This document shows, piece after piece, positions 23,633-36,242 of a stretch of DNA of 64,000 bases. The DNA comes from Candidatus Electrothrix aestuarii (GTDB lineage Bacteria > Desulfobacterota > Desulfobulbia > Desulfobulbales > Desulfobulbaceae): assembly GCA_032595685.2 (NCBI GenBank), contig CP159373.1, positions 145,001 to 209,000 of the forward strand, given 5' to 3'. The translations under genes were made by a program, and so were the position numbers. The number at the start of each line of letters is the position of its first letter. Within the stretch, counting starts at the first letter, position 1. The notes beneath the pieces are model-generated. The model made no database searches. It saw only the letters and a program-made list of their open reading frames with translations, and was not told the origin of the DNA.

Positions 23633-23666
23633 GGCCGTTAGCTAGTTAAAGCTGACGGCCTTTTTT
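23633..23666 (+). terminator. Strong hairpin terminator beside the CRISPR array
   Basis: GGCCGTTAGCT / AGCTGACGGCC with loop AGTTAA is followed by TTTTTT on the plus strand and preceded by AAAAA, so it could work in both directions. It sits 6 bp before the degenerate terminal CRISPR repeat and probably ends the array transcript coming from the right. Confidence 0.75.
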
Positions 23667-23671
23667 GTGCC

Positions 23672-24134
23672 CTAAAAATACCCTCTTCATAGGGTAGGTT
23701 GTTGCAACTACCGACTTTGTGGACTTGACGGTGTTTGACGAGTCTTAATACCCTCTTCATAGGGTAGGTTGTTGCAACCGGATGATACCTTCCTCTTGGT
23801 CGGTATATGTGAGTCTTAATACCCTCTTCATAGGGTAGGTTGTTGCAACCAAGATAACCGTTGATAAATACTGTAATAAAATGTCTTAATACCCTCTTCA
23901 TAGGGTAGGTTGTTGCAACATTGTCAAGGCATTCCAGGCGTTGGATCATGTCGGGTCTTAATACCCTCTTCATAGGGTAGGTTGTTGCAACGTGAGTGGT
24001 TGCCTGGTGTCCGTGTTGTACAAGCGTCTTAATACCCTCTTCATAGGGTAGGTTGTTGCAACGTCCAACTTGCGATAAATTGTATAAGATTAACTGGGTC
24101 TTAATACCCTCTTCATAGGGTAGGTTGTTGCAAC
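23672..24134 (-). CRISPR. CRISPR array, 7 repeats and 6 spacers
   Basis: Seven 37-bp repeats start at 23672, 23742, 23813, 23883, 23955, 24026 and 24098. The plus-strand form runs GTCTTAATACC...GGTTGTTGCAAC with an internal palindrome TACCCT-CTTCAT-AGGGTA. Spacers are 33-35 bp. The leftmost repeat is degenerate in its first five bases, marking it as the leader-distal end, so transcription is inferred on the minus strand from the AT-rich leader on the right. No cas genes are in the window. The long stem-forming repeat is compatible with type I or III; the type cannot be fixed. Confidence 0.98.
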
Positions 24135-24479: not shown

Positions 24480-25816
24480 GAACAAAACGCCCTACGGGCG
24501 GATTAAAACGGAAGCAATTGCGGTATCCACTTAACCTGCCGACCCGAAGAGTTTCTCTTGTTGCATTCTTGTTTACTCTTGCTTTCCACAAAAGGTCCGT
24601 CTCTGCTCAGATCAAAGATATCTCCATAGTCAGGATGCCAAATCCGCCATAAAAACATTTTTTCTTTACAGTTTGGACATGTTAACGGATCTTTCCCGAA
24701 ACTCTGTACTAGACGCTCTCTCCAGCTCAATGACCTTGAATCACTTTTCATGAATTCAAAAGTCTTCTGGATAAAACGTTTACAGTCCATCAAAATCTCT
24801 ATCGCGATTGTTTTTGTACGTCGAGAATATAACCCATAATGGCGGACCATCTTGAATCCCTTTAGCGGGATATGGTCAATTAATCGTTGTATGAACTCTT
24901 TGGCTGGAATCGCTTCGGTAACTTTAACTTCTGTTTTATGATCAATATACCAAAATGTTACTTCCTCACCATCGTAATTCGTTATCTTGTGCTCTGCCAA
25001 TGCTGGACGAGCCATATAGCGACCAATATATCGAGCTGCATGTCTTGCTGATGTCATCTTGCTTTTACCATTTACATAAAAACCATTACGTTGGCTTTTA
25101 AACAGGTAATCTATGAATCTTACATTTTCTTTTGTTTGCGGCAAGCTAGCCTTTATTTCAGTCAGCAAATAATATTGCCATTTTTTTCTAAGCAGACCAT
25201 ATGGCAAAAATGGAATATCAACCCACTGATTGGAAGATGTTAATCCTCCTTCTGTCATTAACATATGGACATGCGGATTAAACTTAAGATCTCTTCCAAA
25301 CGTATGGACAACTAATAGAATTCCCGGAACAGCATCAACTCCTTTACTTTGAAGTACTTCCACAGCCGCTTTTGAAGCACAATCCATCATAATCTTGATC
25401 AGCATACGATCACTAAAAATTATCTTTCGGAGTTCTTGTGGAATGGTAAACACTAAATGTCGATGAACTACGTCGAATATACTTTTCACTGTCTTTTCAA
25501 CCCATTCATCGACGTATCGCTTACCGCAAGACGTACAGAATCGACACTTACAGGTGAACCCTACTCTCTTTTTTCAAAACAATTCGGACAAATATACTCG
25601 ACATAGCCATTGGTAGACTCTCCACAGTTGATCATTTTTTCTACATTTTCAACGATTGACTCCCAGTGAAGGCTTGAGTACCTGCTTGCCAATTCAACGC
25701 AGACTACATACCAAAAATCACGAAAGATTAATTTTATCAGCTTATTTTTCATTAAGCTAATACTCTATTCGCAATTACAACATGTTGAAAGGAAAATTTT
25801 ATAATTTCCTATACAA
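24480..25816 (-). mobile_element. IS91/IS1294-like element, copy 1
   Basis: This is the first of two directly repeated units of exactly 1337 bp. The left edge is GAAC (24480-24483) followed by a hairpin CGCCC-TAC-GGGCG (24488-24500). The right edge has AGGAAA...TTTCCT just before CTATACAA. There are no terminal inverted repeats and no target duplication. GAAC (GTTC on the other strand) next to the end downstream of the transposase matches the target preference at the oriIS end of rolling-circle IS91-family elements. Confidence 0.85.
24503..25752 (-). CDS. IS91-family HUH transposase, frameshifted, copy 1
   Basis: Two reading frames make up one transposase. The first (25561-25752, 63 aa) ends with the first zinc-ribbon half YICPNCFEKRE. 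The second (24503 to about 25570) continues with VGFTCKCRFCTSCGKRYVDEW, the HUH motif FNPHVHMLMTEGG and RYIGRYMARPALAEHKI. The join is a T6 run (A6 on the coding strand) at 25569-25574. A -1 slip there yields an unbroken protein of about 415 residues with an intact zinc ribbon. It is either programmed or a disabling mutation; the identical join in copy 2 argues against a sequencing slip in just one copy. Confidence 0.85.
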
Positions 25817-27153
25817 GAACAAAACGCCCTACGGGCGGATTAAAACGGAAGCAATTGCGGTATCCACTTAACCTGCCGACCCGAAGAGTTTCTCTTGTTG
25901 CATTCTTGTTTACTCTTGCTTTCCACAAAAGGTCCGTCTCTGCTCAGATCAAAGATATCTCCATAGTCAGGATGCCAAATCCGCCATAAAAACATTTTTT
26001 CTTTACAGTTTGGACATGTTAACGGATCTTTCCCGAAACTCTGTACTAGACGCTCTCTCCAGCTCAATGACCTTGAATCACTTTTCATGAATTCAAAAGT
26101 CTTCTGGATAAAACGTTTACAGTCCATCAAAATCTCTATCGCGATTGTTTTTGTACGTCGAGAATATAACCCATAATGGCGGACCATCTTGAATCCCTTT
26201 AGCGGGATATGGTCAATTAATCGTTGTATGAACTCTTTGGCTGGAATCGCTTCGGTAACTTTAACTTCTGTTTTATGATCAATATACCAAAATGTTACTT
26301 CCTCACCATCGTAATTCGTTATCTTGTGCTCTGCCAATGCTGGACGAGCCATATAGCGACCAATATATCGAGCTGCATGTCTTGCTGATGTCATCTTGCT
26401 TTTACCATTTACATAAAAACCATTACGTTGGCTTTTAAACAGGTAATCTATGAATCTTACATTTTCTTTTGTTTGCGGCAAGCTAGCCTTTATTTCAGTC
26501 AGCAAATAATATTGCCATTTTTTTCTAAGCAGACCATATGGCAAAAATGGAATATCAACCCACTGATTGGAAGATGTTAATCCTCCTTCTGTCATTAACA
26601 TATGGACATGCGGATTAAACTTAAGATCTCTTCCAAACGTATGGACAACTAATAGAATTCCCGGAACAGCATCAACTCCTTTACTTTGAAGTACTTCCAC
26701 AGCCGCTTTTGAAGCACAATCCATCATAATCTTGATCAGCATACGATCACTAAAAATTATCTTTCGGAGTTCTTGTGGAATGGTAAACACTAAATGTCGA
26801 TGAACTACGTCGAATATACTTTTCACTGTCTTTTCAACCCATTCATCGACGTATCGCTTACCGCAAGACGTACAGAATCGACACTTACAGGTGAACCCTA
26901 CTCTCTTTTTTCAAAACAATTCGGACAAATATACTCGACATAGCCATTGGTAGACTCTCCACAGTTGATCATTTTTTCTACATTTTCAACGATTGACTCC
27001 CAGTGAAGGCTTGAGTACCTGCTTGCCAATTCAACGCAGACTACATACCAAAAATCACGAAAGATTAATTTTATCAGCTTATTTTTCATTAAGCTAATAC
27101 TCTATTCGCAATTACAACATGTTGAAAGGAAAATTTTATAATTTCCTATACAA
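25817..27153 (-). mobile_element. IS91/IS1294-like element, copy 2 (tandem)
   Basis: This second unit follows copy 1 head to tail with no intervening bases beyond the GAAC at 25817-25820. Both the coding and flanking sequence appear identical to copy 1. The right edge ...CTATACAA at 27153 then meets unrelated sequence. Tandem copies are expected when rolling-circle replication runs past the terminus or inserts next to a pre-existing GAAC. Confidence 0.85.
25840..27089 (-). CDS. IS91-family HUH transposase, frameshifted, copy 2
   Basis: This is identical in translation to copy 1: the zinc-ribbon N-terminal frame (26898-27089) and the main frame (25840 to about 26907) with HVH and the RYIGRYMARPA segment. 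The A6 slip site is at 26906-26911. A GTG within the main frame (26826) could also start an N-terminally truncated 328-residue protein lacking the zinc ribbon. Confidence 0.85.
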
Positions 27154-27698: not shown

Positions 27699-28709
27699 TT
27701 ACATGAACCCCGATAAAAAATTCTTTACACATTGCCCAAGAACATCAACATTATACCCACCTTCCTGGCATACCAAGGTCGGGATTCCCAGAGCCTTAAA
27801 CTGACGGCCTATAGAAATATAGTCTTCCGTATGGATTTTAAATCCGCCGATGGGGTCGTCTCTATGGGTATCAAAACCAGCGGCAATAATTAAATAGGAA
27901 GGGTTAAACTCTTTTATTTTACAGATTATTCTGTCAACAGCACCGCTGTATTGTTCTATCTCTGTCTCCTTGGGCAACGGTTCATTATGATTGGTACCAG
28001 CAGCCTGACCTTTTCCTTTTTCGTCATCATATCCCCAAAAATAGGGGTACTCATTGGTAGGATCGCAATGAATGGAAGCAGTAAAAACCGATTTCACTTC
28101 ATCGAAAAATTCTTGCGTTCCATTACCGTGATGATAATCGATATCTACAAGAGCAACTCTCCCTCCCGGCAATAAATACTCCGCAGCAACAGCTGCATTA
28201 TTGAAATAACAATAGCCGCCAAAGACACGGGGCCCGGCGTGATGGCCTGAAGGTCGACACAAGGCATAGACTGTTTTCTCCTGCCCTTTACGGAGCAGTT
28301 CTGCACCTGTCAACGCGGTTTCAGCAGAAGCACGGGCCACCTCGTATGTCTTTCTTTTTATGGGCGTCACAGCATCTGTACACCATATGCCGCCCCAAAG
28401 CGGTGAATCCACTTTTCTCCTGAGATTTGCGTTCTCCCCAGGAAAGAGGTCAGGATAAAACTCCTCATCATCATCTTTTAATTCTGAAGCTGTATTCAGG
28501 ATATAATCGTGATACGGATGCAACCGTGCAATAAAGCGTTCAGGAAATTGCTGTGCCGTTATAAAATCAAAGCGGTCATCAGAACGCAGGGCCTTTTTAA
28601 TGGCTTCAACCCGAAGAGGGGTATCCTTGACTTCATATGTCTCCGGTCCAAGCTGATACTTCCAATACGGGTTATGCAGACTGTCGTTATACTTTTCAAT
28701 GACCTTCAT
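27699..28709 (-). CDS. HDAC-family amidohydrolase (acetylpolyamine deacetylase-like)
   Basis: This 336-residue member of the arginase/deacetylase fold removes acetyl or acyl groups from amines. The zinc site and catalytic residues are visible: RPSGHHAG (His-His dyad, about residue 152), DIDYHHGNGTQ (Asp/His zinc ligands, about 188), GFDTHRDDP (about 274) and EGGYN (about 313). An N-terminal loop with WGGIWCTDAVTP and the overall length resemble bacterial acetylpolyamine amidohydrolases. Its start overlaps the stop of the ATP-grasp/DmpA gene by 4 bp (ATGA), so the two proteins very likely act in one pathway. Confidence 0.93.
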   Translation of the reverse strand: MKVIEKYNDSLHNPYWKYQLGPETYEVKDTPLRVEAIKKALRSDDRFDFITAQQFPERFIARLHPYHDYILNTASELKDDDEEFYPDLFPGENANLRRKVDSPLWGGIWCTDAVTPIKRKTYEVARASAETALTGAELLRKGQEKTVYALCRPSGHHAGPRVFGGYCYFNNAAVAAEYLLPGGRVALVDIDYHHGNGTQEFFDEVKSVFTASIHCDPTNEYPYFWGYDDEKGKGQAAGTNHNEPLPKETEIEQYSGAVDRIICKIKEFNPSYLIIAAGFDTHRDDPIGGFKIHTEDYISIGRQFKALGIPTLVCQEGGYNVDVLGQCVKNFLSGFM

Positions 28710-30853
28710 GAAGCTATTTCCCCTTTATTCAGTAATTCAAGGATACGTTGATGCGGAACCGGCGGGCACCAGCGCTGTTCACGCCCATTCATTCCATTGG
28801 AACAGAATATGGCATTTATAACCGCCTCCTCAGTGGCTTCGACGACAGCTTCATACACCATATCGATGTAATTATCTGAGATCAATTTCAAGGTGATAAA
28901 GTTACTTTTAGAAGTATTCACCCGGGGCTTGCGGTTACCGGTACTGAAAGCAAGAATAATCTCCCCACTGGTTGCAGCGGCATAGGAACCAGTACGCCCA
29001 AGGCCCAGGGCAGCTCGTTTAGCAACCCGATTAAGCTGACTGGTGATAAGTGGAATATCCGTAGCAACGACGACAATGATTGAACCTTCTGATACCACAC
29101 GACGCCCTTCCTGATCAAATTCCCTGTCAAGGGTTCTGCCGACAACACCTCCATCAATGGTCAGGTTGCGCATTTTCCCAAAATTGGAAAGCACAAGAAC
29201 TCCGACTGTAAATGCCTTGCCTTCCGACACCGTGATAATACGTGACGAGGTTCCGATGCCCCCGGCAAAATCAAAACTTGTCATGCCGATGCCAGCACCT
29301 ATCGATCCTTGTTGCACCGGACCCGAGGATGCTGATTCCATAGCCTTCACAGCATCCTGGGCCGAACAGACTCCCACCCGGACATCATTTAAAAAGGAAT
29401 CGTCAGCTTCACCAACAACCGGCAGAACCACGTCGGTTTCTGTGCCGAGTCGCGGATACTTTTTCAACATATGGTTAACGACACCGGCATGAACCCGGCC
29501 CACAGAATGTGAGTTAGTGAGCAATATCGGCGTTTCCAGCCAACCGGTCTCAATCACCTGGGTTAAGCCCGCCATTTCACCGACGCCGTTTAAAATAAAG
29601 CCGCCTGCCGCAATTCTGTTCGCATAGGCCCGCCCGGCAGGCATAATTGCCGTAACACCGGTACGAATAGTACTTTTTTCTGTTTGGCCGGGCACCTGAA
29701 CATCATCTTCAAATCGTGAAACATGACCGACACGAACACCTTTCACATCTGTAATTGCATTATGTACTCCCGGAGTCATCCAGCCGATTTGAATGCCCAG
29801 CTCCCTTGCACCAGGACGTGGATTTTCAAAGGCAATATGAGCCTGTTTCGTTTGCTTAGCAGATCTGAGCGGAATACCATATCGGCGGGCCGCCGAACGT
29901 ATCACTAAACGCAGGGCATCTCGAAATTCAAGCCCGCGTGACCGGGCAGCAGTCATAAGCGAGGCATCAGGATGAAGACTCGGCAAAGGGTTCAATTCAA
30001 TAAAATAGGGCGTTCCGTTTGTATGCAAGCGAATATCCACCCGACCGACATCAGGACAGGACATGATATCAAAGACTTGCCGAGCCATCTGGGTCACAGC
30101 TTTTTCTTCTTCTGCATTGATATTGGCAGGGCAGACCACATGGACTGATTCAGCGGCTTCTCCGCCCTGTTTCATATCATAGTCGTAGATATTATATTTC
30201 CCCCCAATCTTCTTGAGATCAAAGGTATGTTCAACCACGTCGAGTAATTTTCCCGGATAACTTTCAAGAAAGGGAATACTGAGCTCCCGGCCTCCGATAT
30301 ATTCTTCAACAACAAGGCCAGCAGGATAATGATTTAACAGACGGTTTATTCTGGTCAGGGCGATATCTCTGGTGTCAACGACTGAATCCTGGGTAATCCC
30401 CTTACTTGATCCCTCTGAATTCGGTTTAATCATCAAGGGATACTGCAAATCATCGGGCAAGACAAAATCCCTCCCCGTAATCAAGATGCCCTTTGGCACA
30501 TTGACGCCATGATTGGAGAGAACGGTCTTGGCAAGATGTTTATCAAGATTGAGATGAAGCAAAGATGCATTGCCGCCGGTAAACGGAATACCCATTTGCT
30601 CGTATAATCCAGGATAAAAGGCCTCTCTGGAACTCCCGATGGTTCCTTCTGCCAGATTAAAAATAAGATCAGGTTCGCTTTCAATCAGGCGCTCAATGAC
30701 TTCATTGGGCTTCCCGGATACCTCTACCACGGTCACCGAGTGGTGAAGACTGCTAATGGCCTCGTGTATCCTGTTTATATCGGCCTCCGTAAGAAGTTCA
30801 GCTGTTGCTTCTGTATTATCTGTCCGAAGGTTGTATGCAATGGTGATTCTCAT
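28706..30853 (-). CDS. ATP-grasp (D-Ala-D-Ala ligase-like) / DmpA-type aminopeptidase fusion
   Basis: This 715-residue bifunctional protein has two parts. Residues about 1-330 are an ATP-grasp ligase of the D-Ala-D-Ala ligase type: NLAEGTIGSSREAFYPGLYEQMGIPFTG (in part EGTIGSSREAFYP), MIKPNSEGSSKGI, and metal ligands in GRVDIRLHTNGTPYFIELNPLPSLHP (in part YFIELNPLPSLHP). Residues about 350-715 are a P1-family (DmpA/BapA) Ntn peptidase: ITDVKGVRVGHVS, LTNSHSVGRVHAG, GSIGAGIGMTSFDFAGGIGTSSR, where the GGIG/T bond is the expected self-cleavage site exposing the nucleophile. One half makes a peptide-like bond and the other hydrolyses N-terminal amide bonds. A good RBS (AGGAGAT) precedes the start. 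Confidence 0.92.
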   Translation of the reverse strand: MRITIAYNLRTDNTEATAELLTEADINRIHEAISSLHHSVTVVEVSGKPNEVIERLIESEPDLIFNLAEGTIGSSREAFYPGLYEQMGIPFTGGNASLLHLNLDKHLAKTVLSNHGVNVPKGILITGRDFVLPDDLQYPLMIKPNSEGSSKGITQDSVVDTRDIALTRINRLLNHYPAGLVVEEYIGGRELSIPFLESYPGKLLDVVEHTFDLKKIGGKYNIYDYDMKQGGEAAESVHVVCPANINAEEEKAVTQMARQVFDIMSCPDVGRVDIRLHTNGTPYFIELNPLPSLHPDASLMTAARSRGLEFRDALRLVIRSAARRYGIPLRSAKQTKQAHIAFENPRPGARELGIQIGWMTPGVHNAITDVKGVRVGHVSRFEDDVQVPGQTEKSTIRTGVTAIMPAGRAYANRIAAGGFILNGVGEMAGLTQVIETGWLETPILLTNSHSVGRVHAGVVNHMLKKYPRLGTETDVVLPVVGEADDSFLNDVRVGVCSAQDAVKAMESASSGPVQQGSIGAGIGMTSFDFAGGIGTSSRIITVSEGKAFTVGVLVLSNFGKMRNLTIDGGVVGRTLDREFDQEGRRVVSEGSIIVVVATDIPLITSQLNRVAKRAALGLGRTGSYAAATSGEIILAFSTGNRKPRVNTSKSNFITLKLISDNYIDMVYEAVVEATEEAVINAIFCSNGMNGREQRWCPPVPHQRILELLNKGEIAS

Positions 30854-34826: not shown

Positions 34827-36242
34827 CTACTCTTTCGGGCTAGCCTCATCAAGCAAATCCTCTTCCTGGGTGGCCTTGCGCTCGTCCTCCACTTTTTCCT
34901 GCAAATGCTGCTCAGGGCTCACATCCATTTCTTCATCAACTTCGATGGGGGGAACATGCTCCCGAGGCGGTGCAGGTGCAGGCCCTCTATCCTCAGCCTC
35001 GGGTTGAGCAAAGGGCGACTTGCTCTCCTCAAAGCGCAGGGTATAACTCGGCACGGGGAGCGAGAACCCCTCCGCTGCAAGAGACTCCCTGGCCTTTTGC
35101 ATGGCATAGCTCCTTGCCTTGAGAAAGTCTGTTTCTGTCTGGTTAATCCACGCCATAAAATGGAGGACGATATGGGCATCCCCCATCTCTTCAACAAAGG
35201 AACCCGGCGGCGGGGTATCCAGGATAAAGGGCAGGCTGGCTATGGCCTCAACACCGGCCTCAGTGGCGGCAACCGGGTCATCCTTGACGCCTATGCCCAG
35301 GGTGAAATCAAAACGGCGCTCAGGATTGGTGGTGTAATTAAGAATAGTCGCCTTAAACACCACCGCGTTCGGTATCCGTAAATGATTACCGTCCACTGTC
35401 ATCAGGATAGTGGCCCGGGAGGTCAGGCGAATAACCACGCCCTGATGCTCGTTGATCGAGACAAAATCCCTGGGGCGAAAGGGCTGGCGGAGACTGAGCA
35501 TGATACTGGCGATATAATTCTCAATAGTGTCTTTGACCGCAAAACCTACAGCAAAACCAACCACCCCGGCCCCGCCCAGCAAGGTACCAATCATCCGGCT
35601 TGCGCCCAGCAGATTCATGGCAGTCAGTATGGCCCCGCCAATGGCAACGATGCGAATGATCTGGGCCAGAATTTCTGCAAGGAATTGATTGGGAGTGATT
35701 TTTTCCCAGAGCAGGGAGAAGCGGGCCAGAAGAAAACCAGCCAGAAGAATCAGCCCGGAAATGCCCAGGGCGGTCAGGATCAAAGGCAGGGATTTGACAA
35801 AACGGTTGGCCTTGTCAGCGTACTCGGCAGCCCTGGGCTTAAGATTCTCCTGGAGATTCAGGGTGCGTTCAATATGATCCTGCACGATCACCACCCCGGC
35901 AAGGCGGTTGGTCAGATGGAGGGCACGCTGGGCTGACTCCTCGTTGGCAACCGGCCCGGAAAGCACCACCACCCCTTCTGAAACCGTCACGACTACCTTT
36001 TCCAGGCCGGGAATCTCGGCAAAGATGCCCTCGGCTCGCTGCTTGATCTTTTTATCATCACTCTTTTTGCTGACCGTTTCAATAACGGCAGCAGTTTCCT
36101 TGATCTCGTCGGCATCCGGCAGGCCTTCCTCTGCGGTCGCGGAGCAGGCGTGGGCCAGGAGAAAGAGGAGGAGGAAGAAACAGGGGAGGAAATGATGGAT
36201 AATGGTAGAGGACGACTTTCCTTTTCTCTTACACAAACACAT
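34827..36242 (-). CDS. BON-domain mechanosensitive channel, MscS family
   Basis: This 471-residue inner-membrane channel releases solutes on hypo-osmotic shock. It has a signal sequence (to about residue 38), then a BON domain (IFAEIPGLEKVVVTVSEG...VLSGPVANEE, about 73-130), transmembrane helices at about 155-180 and 195-215, the pore helix TLLGGAGVVGFAVGFAVKD (about 220) and the MscS beta domain (LRQPFRPRDFVSI, about 250; RIPNAVVFKATILNYT). The C-terminal tail is acidic and Pro/Glu-rich. The 21-bp repeat array lies directly upstream, in its promoter region. Confidence 0.93.
   Translation of the reverse strand: MCLCKRKGKSSSTIIHHFLPCFFLLLFLLAHACSATAEEGLPDADEIKETAAVIETVSKKSDDKKIKQRAEGIFAEIPGLEKVVVTVSEGVVVLSGPVANEESAQRALHLTNRLAGVVIVQDHIERTLNLQENLKPRAAEYADKANRFVKSLPLILTALGISGLILLAGFLLARFSLLWEKITPNQFLAEILAQIIRIVAIGGAILTAMNLLGASRMIGTLLGGAGVVGFAVGFAVKDTIENYIASIMLSLRQPFRPRDFVSINEHQGVVIRLTSRATILMTVDGNHLRIPNAVVFKATILNYTTNPERRFDFTLGIGVKDDPVAATEAGVEAIASLPFILDTPPPGSFVEEMGDAHIVLHFMAWINQTETDFLKARSYAMQKARESLAAEGFSLPVPSYTLRFEESKSPFAQPEAEDRGPAPAPPREHVPPIEVDEEMDVSPEQHLQEKVEDERKATQEEDLLDEASPKE

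Follow-up and report, generated by a model that had tools for sequence, protein, structure and literature searches.

What would a bacterium gain from holding a ligase, a peptidase and a deacetylase in just two overlapping genes? The question is raised by a locus in a 64,000-nucleotide stretch of the genome of the cable bacterium Candidatus Electrothrix aestuarii (the window), where the ORF of a fusion protein (30853..28706, minus strand) overlaps by 4 bp with that of an HDAC-like protein (28709..27699, minus strand). The features are as follows.

28706..30853, minus strand: fusion protein of 715 residues, an ATP-grasp ligase joined to a P1-family (DmpA/BapA) Ntn peptidase (ORF, Pfam, PDB matches, homologues)
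29864..30853, minus strand: ATP-grasp ligase half, residues 1-330 (Dala_Dala_lig_C match, PDB matches to Ddl, tree, invariant metal and ATP residues)
28709..29818, minus strand: P1-family beta-aminopeptidase half, residues 346-715 (PDB entries 2drh, 1b65 (DmpA) and 3n2w (BapA), matching from about residue 346-349)
29081..29086, minus strand: predicted autoproteolysis site between G590 and S591, with S591 as the Ntn nucleophile (alignment to DmpA, invariance, excerpt of PMC9570944)
27699..28709, minus strand: HDAC-superfamily deacetylase of 336 residues, the second gene of the cassette (Pfam, zinc-site residues, structure model, position directly after the fusion)

A two-gene cassette in many phyla

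Pfam finds Dala_Dala_lig_C at residues 135-315 of the fusion (94.9 bits, cut-off 24), Peptidase_S58 (PF03576) at residues 365-694 (344 bits, above the curated cut-off of 23.9) and Hist_deacetyl at residues 31-333 of the HDAC-like protein (219 bits). Together with the ORFs, these matches confirm the preliminary description of a 715-residue ATP-grasp/DmpA-type fusion whose gene has 4 bp in common with that of an HDAC-like protein. That description had named an assembly join as what would undo it, and this is ruled out: the fusion recurs in 32 genomes, with 11 phyla among their named records. It is a single full-length ORF in 28 of the 32, is truncated by contig ends in two (L031, L035) and is split into two ORFs in another two (G004/L034, G074/L032).

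The HDAC gene is the next gene after the fusion in all 31 testable genomes, while each of the other neighbour families occurs in at most two of the 31 loci; the pair is therefore a horizontally mobile two-gene cassette. The neighbourhood comparison of the fusion loci revealed no transporter belonging to the cassette itself. A glucose/sorbosone dehydrogenase lies 86 bp upstream, and an operon shared with it was rejected because the dehydrogenase recurs only in a near-identical relative (L003). A plasmid-borne cassette was likewise rejected: none of the 34 matching plasmid records covers 80% of the query, and among the ten of the 34 that were listed only the P1 half is matched. Genome G074 has a fusion fragment beside ablB (L085) that shares 88% DNA identity with its L032 copy, which is either two copies or mixed strains. 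In G484, counted as a non-carrier, a contig end interrupts a cassette-type HDAC (69%), and this genome could be an unrecognised carrier.

The link to AblB and to lysine aminomutases

The osmolyte N-epsilon-acetyl-beta-lysine (NeAcbLys) is made in methanogens and some bacteria by two enzymes: the lysine 2,3-aminomutase AblA converts lysine to beta-lysine, and the acetyltransferase AblB acetylates the epsilon-amine of the latter. AblB, called as TIGR03827 above cut-off, was found in 31 of the 32 cassette carriers, the window's genome included, as against 31 of 575 sampled non-carriers, and in all 22 of the carriers reached via a contig scan. By Fisher tests, which ignore relatedness, the link holds among 57 same-order relatives (5/6 carriers vs 6/51 non-carriers, p 6e-4), across 288 genomes sampled at class level (10/10 vs 16/278, p 6e-12; p 1.9e-5 for the four new carriers alone) and in the Bacteroidota (7/7 carriers vs 9/246 sampled genomes of one order, p 9e-10), where seven contig-scan carriers are set against one order-level sample and the match is possibly inexact. 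Genomes of that Bacteroidota order sample with a stand-alone P1 relative contained AblB in none of five cases. The 31 sampled genomes that have AblB but no cassette show the module to be optional. The one exception among the carriers is a Candidatus Electronema MAG (G034, 93% complete), in which profile searches found neither AblB nor a KamA-family gene. The KamA profile itself (TIGR00238) describes a broad family and is a weak test, being above cut-off in 13 of 14 carriers, 8 of 14 controls and both non-carriers tested.

Gene order points the same way. The cassette adjoins ablB in four of the 32 carriers, from at least three lineages and with ablB on either side: the order is fusion-HDAC-ablB in Psychromonas (L022), ablB-fusion-HDAC in L017, ablA-mscS-ablB-fusion followed by the contig end in L085, and ablA-mscS-SSF symporter (Na+/solute)-ablB-fusion-HDAC in L132. 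It was not seen beside ablB in the other 28 carriers, that of the window among them, and many of these contigs end nearby. Of 19 carriers with a fetched ablB region, 16, again including the window's genome, have ablA (identity 65% or higher) close to ablB; ablA was not found in the fetched regions of G058 and G063, and that of G076 holds a 37% match only. Elsewhere, 10 same-order loci form a second system, in which two ATP-grasp ligases accompany a KamA-type aminomutase; five of these loci also have an HDAC domain. On this co-occurrence and gene order, the two genes very probably belong to the NeAcbLys osmolyte system as an accessory module that moves horizontally.

It is worth asking if habitat by itself would give the same picture: the cassette and ablAB would be genes of saline sediments brought together by chance, and the former would make some unrelated dipeptide, for example of D-Ala or beta-Ala. 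Both are indeed patchy, their association is genome-wide and not always local, and one carrier is without AblB. Such a coincidence is nevertheless very improbable given the four ablB adjacencies on either side of the cassette and the second operon, in which these enzyme classes again occur with a KamA-type aminomutase. Part of the co-occurrence could stem from a common saline habitat, but the adjacency could not. A purely catabolic role has somewhat more to recommend it, and we still consider it unlikely. Here the P1 half and the HDAC would dismantle imported or recovered NeAcbLys peptides for carbon and nitrogen, with the ATP-grasp half putting the freed beta-lysine into a minor product; hydrolysis accounts for two of the three activities, and 11 of the 40 regions fetched, as well as L132, have an SSF-family symporter near ablAB. 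However, the ATP-grasp half is present in every full-length copy seen and keeps its metal and ATP residues in 23 of 23 aligned fusions, the synthesis gene ablB is held by nearly all carriers as well, and the transporter is no part of the cassette.

Active sites and a proposed role

Residues were compared in 23 aligned fusions and 24 aligned HDACs, a subset of the carriers. The loss of catalytic residues, which would have spoken against the preliminary description, was not seen in any of the three activities. In the ATP-grasp half, K143, D273, E286 and N288, whose metal and ATP roles we take to be those of their Ddl counterparts, are intact in 23/23, as that description had wished to see checked for the metal ligands. 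Its D-Ala-D-Ala-type reading of the ligase did not survive. While the fusion shares with Ddl the C-terminal ATP-grasp match and these residues, it scores far below the NCBIfam cut-offs (114 bits vs 245.65 for TIGR01205; 142 vs 243 for NF002378), and in a tree that takes in 17 of the 23 aligned fusions and a paralog the eight Ddl-like rows form a clade of their own (100/100), apart from the fusion. The nearest group to the latter is the KamA operons' ligase A, in a join (92/79) short of the tree program's mark for firm support. The window's genome has a separate Ddl-like gene (G000:C1:2400784). An ATP-grasp protein of another genome (G013, L048) also bears a C-terminal domain.

The P1 half retains E482, N557, G590, S591 and S629 in 23/23, so that the equivalents of DmpA Glu144, Asn218 and Ser288 and the Gly-Ser nucleophile pair are all present. 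DmpA G249-S250 aligns with G590-S591, for a predicted cut between SEG and SIIVVVATD; an excerpt of PMC9570944 gives SIIVVIATDA as the N-terminus, by sequencing, of a DmpA-type enzyme. The GGIG/T motif at residues 532-535, put forward earlier as the cleavage site, is thus the wrong one. The half is predicted to process itself into two chains. The equivalent of DmpA Tyr146 is D484 in 23/23, a position that is substituted in some P1 members according to the same excerpt, and that of Q216 is L555. Beta-aminopeptidases are known among the P1 enzymes (excerpts of PMC9235088 and PMC9570944). An AlphaFold model of the fusion has a mean pLDDT of 54, better in the ATP-grasp half and poor in the P1 half.

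The HDAC-like protein has an intact zinc site, with H156, H157, D191, H193, D280 and Y319 kept in 24/24. Its closest solved structures are acetylpolyamine amidohydrolases (Z 35 for its model, rmsd 3.1-3.4 A over 308-314 aligned residues, 32-33% identity), with which it shares the HDAC fold and the zinc site but not the polyamine-binding glutamates. Relative to the M. ramosa enzyme, E106 is replaced by P103 in 22/24 (otherwise A), E117 by V114 in 23/24 (otherwise D) and D163 by R161, with reversed charge, in 24/24. Glu106 and Glu117 bind the polyamine in M. ramosa, and one true bacterial polyamine deacetylase, ApaH, has His at 106 (roles of these residues, D163 included, from excerpts of PMC11532494 and PMC5454378). 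With both binding glutamates lost and the AblB link in place, the acetylpolyamine lead was dropped as the main reading. R161 might, as a guess, bind a carboxylate.

How could these activities serve the osmolyte? The HDAC-like enzyme most likely strips the epsilon-acetyl group added by AblB; the ATP-grasp half most likely couples beta-lysine or NeAcbLys, through its carboxylate, to an amine and so makes a beta-peptide; and the P1 half, as a self-processing beta-aminopeptidase, would release the N-terminal beta-amino acid again. Because synthesis and cleavage are joined in a single chain, free osmolyte could enter and leave a conjugated form, and via the deacetylase return to beta-lysine. The osmolyte link is well supported, whereas substrates and product are inferred, and sequence alone does not give away the substrates of the ligase. 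Taken as a whole, an NeAcbLys module with a deacetylating HDAC and a fusion that makes and cleaves a beta-peptide is the explanation we lean towards. The earlier idea of a pathway dedicated to an unusual peptide or acylated amine, which it would make, trim or recycle, stands in outline, given the strict two-gene unit, the ablB link and the intact active sites, and loses its polyamine, D-Ala-D-Ala and GGIG/T details.

Ddl-like ligases make homodipeptides. A more specific and quite tentative possibility is an osmotic buffer, in which the fusion would reversibly pack NeAcbLys into a beta-peptide, such as a dimer or a conjugate with an alpha-amino acid, and the deacetylase would return beta-lysine. 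If so, bacteria could quickly adjust their count of osmotically active particles, downwards or upwards, with no need to synthesise the solute anew or to lose it to the medium, by means of a two-gene unit spread among AblB-containing bacteria of many phyla.

Comparison with known systems

Glutathionylspermidine synthetase/amidase has an ATP-grasp synthetase and a CHAP amidase in one polypeptide, a principle that the fusion shares, in a different domain order. A polyamine conjugation cycle of this kind, with the HDAC freeing the polyamine, the ligase adding an amino acid and the P1 half removing it, would agree with the closest HDAC structures as well as with the ligase-amidase resemblance. There is little chance that it applies here: the three replacements in the HDAC oppose it, and the AblB link would go unexplained. 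The amidase of the window, moreover, is P1 and not CHAP (Peptidase_S58 was matched, and a CHAP domain had no Pfam match in the fusion at E 0.001), and nothing points to glutathione or spermidine as its substrates. Compared with DmpA and BapA, the P1 half has the same domain of about 365 residues, Ser nucleophile after Gly and E144/N218/S288 equivalents, but it is fused behind an ATP-grasp ligase and differs at Y146 and Q216.

The synthesis of NeAcbLys is described in an excerpt of PMC12776343, and little if any turnover was reported for methanogens in the excerpted part of a 2005 review (PMC1224877). Among the literature matches listed, which cover subscription papers sparsely and no preprints, neither the fusion/HDAC pair nor the KamA/ATP-grasp/HDAC operon is described. 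Cable-bacterium genomes are shown here to encode the NeAcbLys osmolyte pathway, and a substrate hypothesis can be offered for HDAC-like and Ddl-like enzymes with misleading family names. With AblA/AblB synthesis the cassette has in common that AblB is encoded in 31 of 32 carriers and that, in four genomes, it adjoins ablB. The known pathway, in contrast, has two steps, with NeAcbLys usually described as the end product and without the fusion or the HDAC in the descriptions among the matches listed. The gene pair may be a missing step that modifies or recycles NeAcbLys: mobile, and found with ablB in phylum after phylum, it provides concrete genes for a further stage, one of deacetylation and reversible peptide formation.

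The gene pair and its active sites

The cassette sits in a 5.11 Mb genome (G000) that is on one contig, of which the window covers positions 145001-209000. Its two ORFs are:

30853..28706, minus strand: fusion of an ATP-grasp ligase and a P1-family peptidase, 715 aa
28709..27699, minus strand: HDAC-like protein, 336 aa

These coordinates bear out the 4-bp overlap given in the preliminary description. Pfam places Dala_Dala_lig_C at residues 135-315 and Peptidase_S58 at residues 365-694 of the fusion, and Hist_deacetyl in the 336-aa protein. Among solved structures, the matches are DmpA/BapA-type enzymes for the C-terminal half of the fusion (best 283 bits), Ddl enzymes for its N-terminal half (78 bits) and acetylpolyamine amidohydrolases for the 336-aa protein (214 bits). 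The predicted model of the latter (mean pLDDT 75) superposes on acetylpolyamine amidohydrolases with a Z of about 35, 32-33% identity and an rmsd of 3.1-3.4 Å over 308-314 residues.

Roughly 4 kb upstream of the cassette lies a BON-domain MscS-type mechanosensitive channel (34827-36242), and adjoining the cassette are two 328-aa Y2 transposase ORFs of identical translation in direct repeat (24503-25489 and 25840-26826). There is also a CRISPR-like array (23666-24134), with 7 copies of a ~37-nt repeat (GTCTTAATACCCTCTTCATAGGGTAGGTTGTTGCAAC) at 70-72 nt spacing, which one predicted ORF crosses.

In keeping with the ligase proposed earlier, the ATP-grasp catalytic residues K143, D273, E286 and N288 are invariant in all 23 aligned fusions. 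So are the P1 residues E482, N557, G590, S591 and S629, which align with DmpA E144, N218, G249, S250 and S288; DmpA Q216 and Y146 are replaced by L555 and D484. The alignment of G590 and S591 with DmpA G249 and S250 places the predicted maturation site at G590|S591, and the N-terminal sequence SIIVVIATDA of a DmpA-type enzyme, as given in a passage of PMC9570944, agrees with it. The GGIG/T motif that had been taken for the cleavage site is a separate motif upstream. In the HDAC, residues H156, H157, D191, H193, D280 and Y319 are invariant (24 of 24 aligned). The polyamine-binding E106 and E117 of the M. ramosa enzyme, as described in parts of PMC11532494 and PMC5454378, are instead P103 in 22 and V114 in 23 of the 24, and D163, a dimer salt-bridge residue of the Pseudomonas enzyme, is R161 in all 24.

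Distribution and mobility of the cassette

The contig scan yielded 25 fusion loci at 62-96% identity, with named records from Thermodesulfobacteriota, Bacteroidota, Ignavibacteriota, Pseudomonadota, Kiritimatiellota, Verrucomicrobiota, Lentisphaerota, Spirochaetota, Fidelibacterota, Sumerlaeota and Gemmatimonadota. Three loci (L014, L020, L034) were taken as belonging to genomes G001, G034 and G004 and counted once, leaving 22 further genomes; together with 6 of 57 searched relatives and 4 new genomes in a 288-genome class sample, they make 32 carriers. The fusion, for which an assembly join had been considered, recurs as a single full-length ORF in 28 of these, two copies being cut by contig ends and two present as two ORFs. 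Its pairing with the deacetylase also holds: in each of the 31 carriers with contig sequence beyond the fusion, the following gene encodes a protein of the same kind (contig L031 stops within the fusion).

Three of the eight genus-group genomes, G000 among the eight, are missing the fusion: G002, G005 and G006, with completeness of 93%, 69% and 95%. Clustering of neighbours at 31 loci found, besides fusion and HDAC, no family in more than two. In the ATP-grasp tree, a Psychromonas and a Kiritimatiellota sequence are paired (100/99), and the window's fusion groups with sequences from Bacteroidota, Ignavibacteriota and Pseudomonadota (97/84), separate from Electronema of the same family. This patchy presence, the lack of other recurrent neighbours and the cross-phylum pairings argue that the pair moves as a unit.

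One carrier, G447, has a second fusion (L133 1776-3896, minus strand) that is 51% identical, has no HDAC neighbour and adjoins a putative response-regulator gene, named from its sequence alone.

Association with the AblA-AblB system

Conserved in its gene content, the cassette co-occurs with, and in some genomes is linked to, the system in which the aminomutase AblA and the acetyltransferase AblB make the osmolyte N-epsilon-acetyl-beta-lysine (NeAcbLys). AblB (beta-lysine N6-acetyltransferase, TIGR03827 over cut-off) was searched in 79 genomes and found in 22 of 22 contig-scan carriers. Fisher tests, all of which ignore kinship, gave p = 6e-4 among the 57 relatives (5/6 carriers vs 6/51 others), 6e-12 in the class sample around a Kiritimatiellota carrier (10/10 carriers, 6 previously known and 4 new, vs 16/278 others), 1.9e-5 when just the 4 new ones are counted as carriers, 9e-10 for 7 Bacteroidota carriers vs 9/246 sampled genomes, and 1e-33 pooled (31/32 carriers vs 31/575 non-carriers). 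In the order sample around Tangfeifania (G057), the sole full-length fusion carrier there, 10 of 247 genomes have AblB, one of them being G057, and none of the five with stand-alone P1 relatives does. The exception among carriers is a Candidatus Electronema MAG (G034), in which the cassette is present and neither ablA nor ablB was found. A shared habitat may contribute to this co-occurrence. Many genomes have AblB and lack the cassette; in 11 of the 31 of this kind some HDAC relative turned up at E 1e-20, but only the class-sample genome G484 showed one of the cassette type (69% identity), as a copy cut by a contig end.

Of 19 carriers with a fetched ablB region, 16 have an ablA of at least 65% identity near ablB; in G076 the match is 37%, and the fetched stretches of G058 and G063 gave none. 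In G000, ablA and ablB are direct neighbours at 3.76 Mb, distant from the cassette at 0.17 Mb. The cassette is next to ablB in four carriers:

L022, Psychromonas sp. MB-3u-54: fusion-HDAC-ablB
L017, marine Pseudomonadota MAG: ablB-fusion-HDAC; another ablAB elsewhere in the genome
L085, Kiritimatiellota MAG: ablA-mscS-ablB-fusion, up to the contig end
L132, class-sample genome G493: ablA-mscS-SSF symporter-ablB-fusion-HDAC, single strand throughout

The last two may come from one lineage, and in 28 of 32 carriers, G000 included, no such adjacency to ablB was seen. Genes for mechanosensitive channels and sodium/solute symporters would be expected at an osmolyte locus; among 40 ablAB regions, drawn from carriers and non-carriers alike, 14 contain a MarR-type regulator family and 11 an SSF family, each family named from a single member.

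Related operons and a proposed mechanism

Ten loci without the fusion (L039-L047, L052), from genomes of the same taxonomic order, combine a KamA-type aminomutase with two ATP-grasp ligases, with GNAT acetyltransferase domains next in the members scanned. Five of the ten have an HDAC domain match (39-40% identity), fused to GNAT in both loci scanned, and the scanned KamA scores 499 bits against the AblA model (cut-off 525). In the ATP-grasp tree, the fusion's ATP-grasp half has ligase A of these operons as its closest group, at less than firm support (92/79), and the Ddl-like rows form their own clade (100/100). In the AblB-positive G484, genes for KamA, GNAT-HDAC and ligase A are found together in a different order. 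The combination of aminomutase, acetyltransferase, ligase and deacetylase thus recurs without depending on the P1 fusion. The loci with KamA, Ddl-like ATP-grasp ligases, GNAT and GNAT-HDAC (L039-L047, L052, L159) probably represent another beta-amino-acid peptide pathway.

Other ATP-grasp architectures include a methyltransferase fused to a Ddl-like domain (L049 7296-9227, minus; L050 6392-8311, plus) and a 724-aa protein with an additional C-terminal domain beside a gamma-glutamyltranspeptidase (L048 636-2810), in an AblB-positive, cassette-free genome.

For the cassette itself, we propose that the HDAC-like enzyme would take off the acetyl group added by AblB, deacetylation of acetyl amines of such kind being HDAC chemistry. 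The ATP-grasp half would make an amide with beta-lysine or its acetyl form as N-terminal residue, and the P1 half would hydrolyse such an amide. Glutathionylspermidine synthetase/amidase likewise has maker and breaker within one chain. P1 enzymes, according to parts of PMC9235088 and PMC9570944, include beta-aminopeptidases that cleave beta-alanyl dipeptides. If the mechanism is true, the cassette would offer bacteria a turnover of NeAcbLys, an osmolyte for which a passage of PMC1224877 reports little if any turnover in methanogens.
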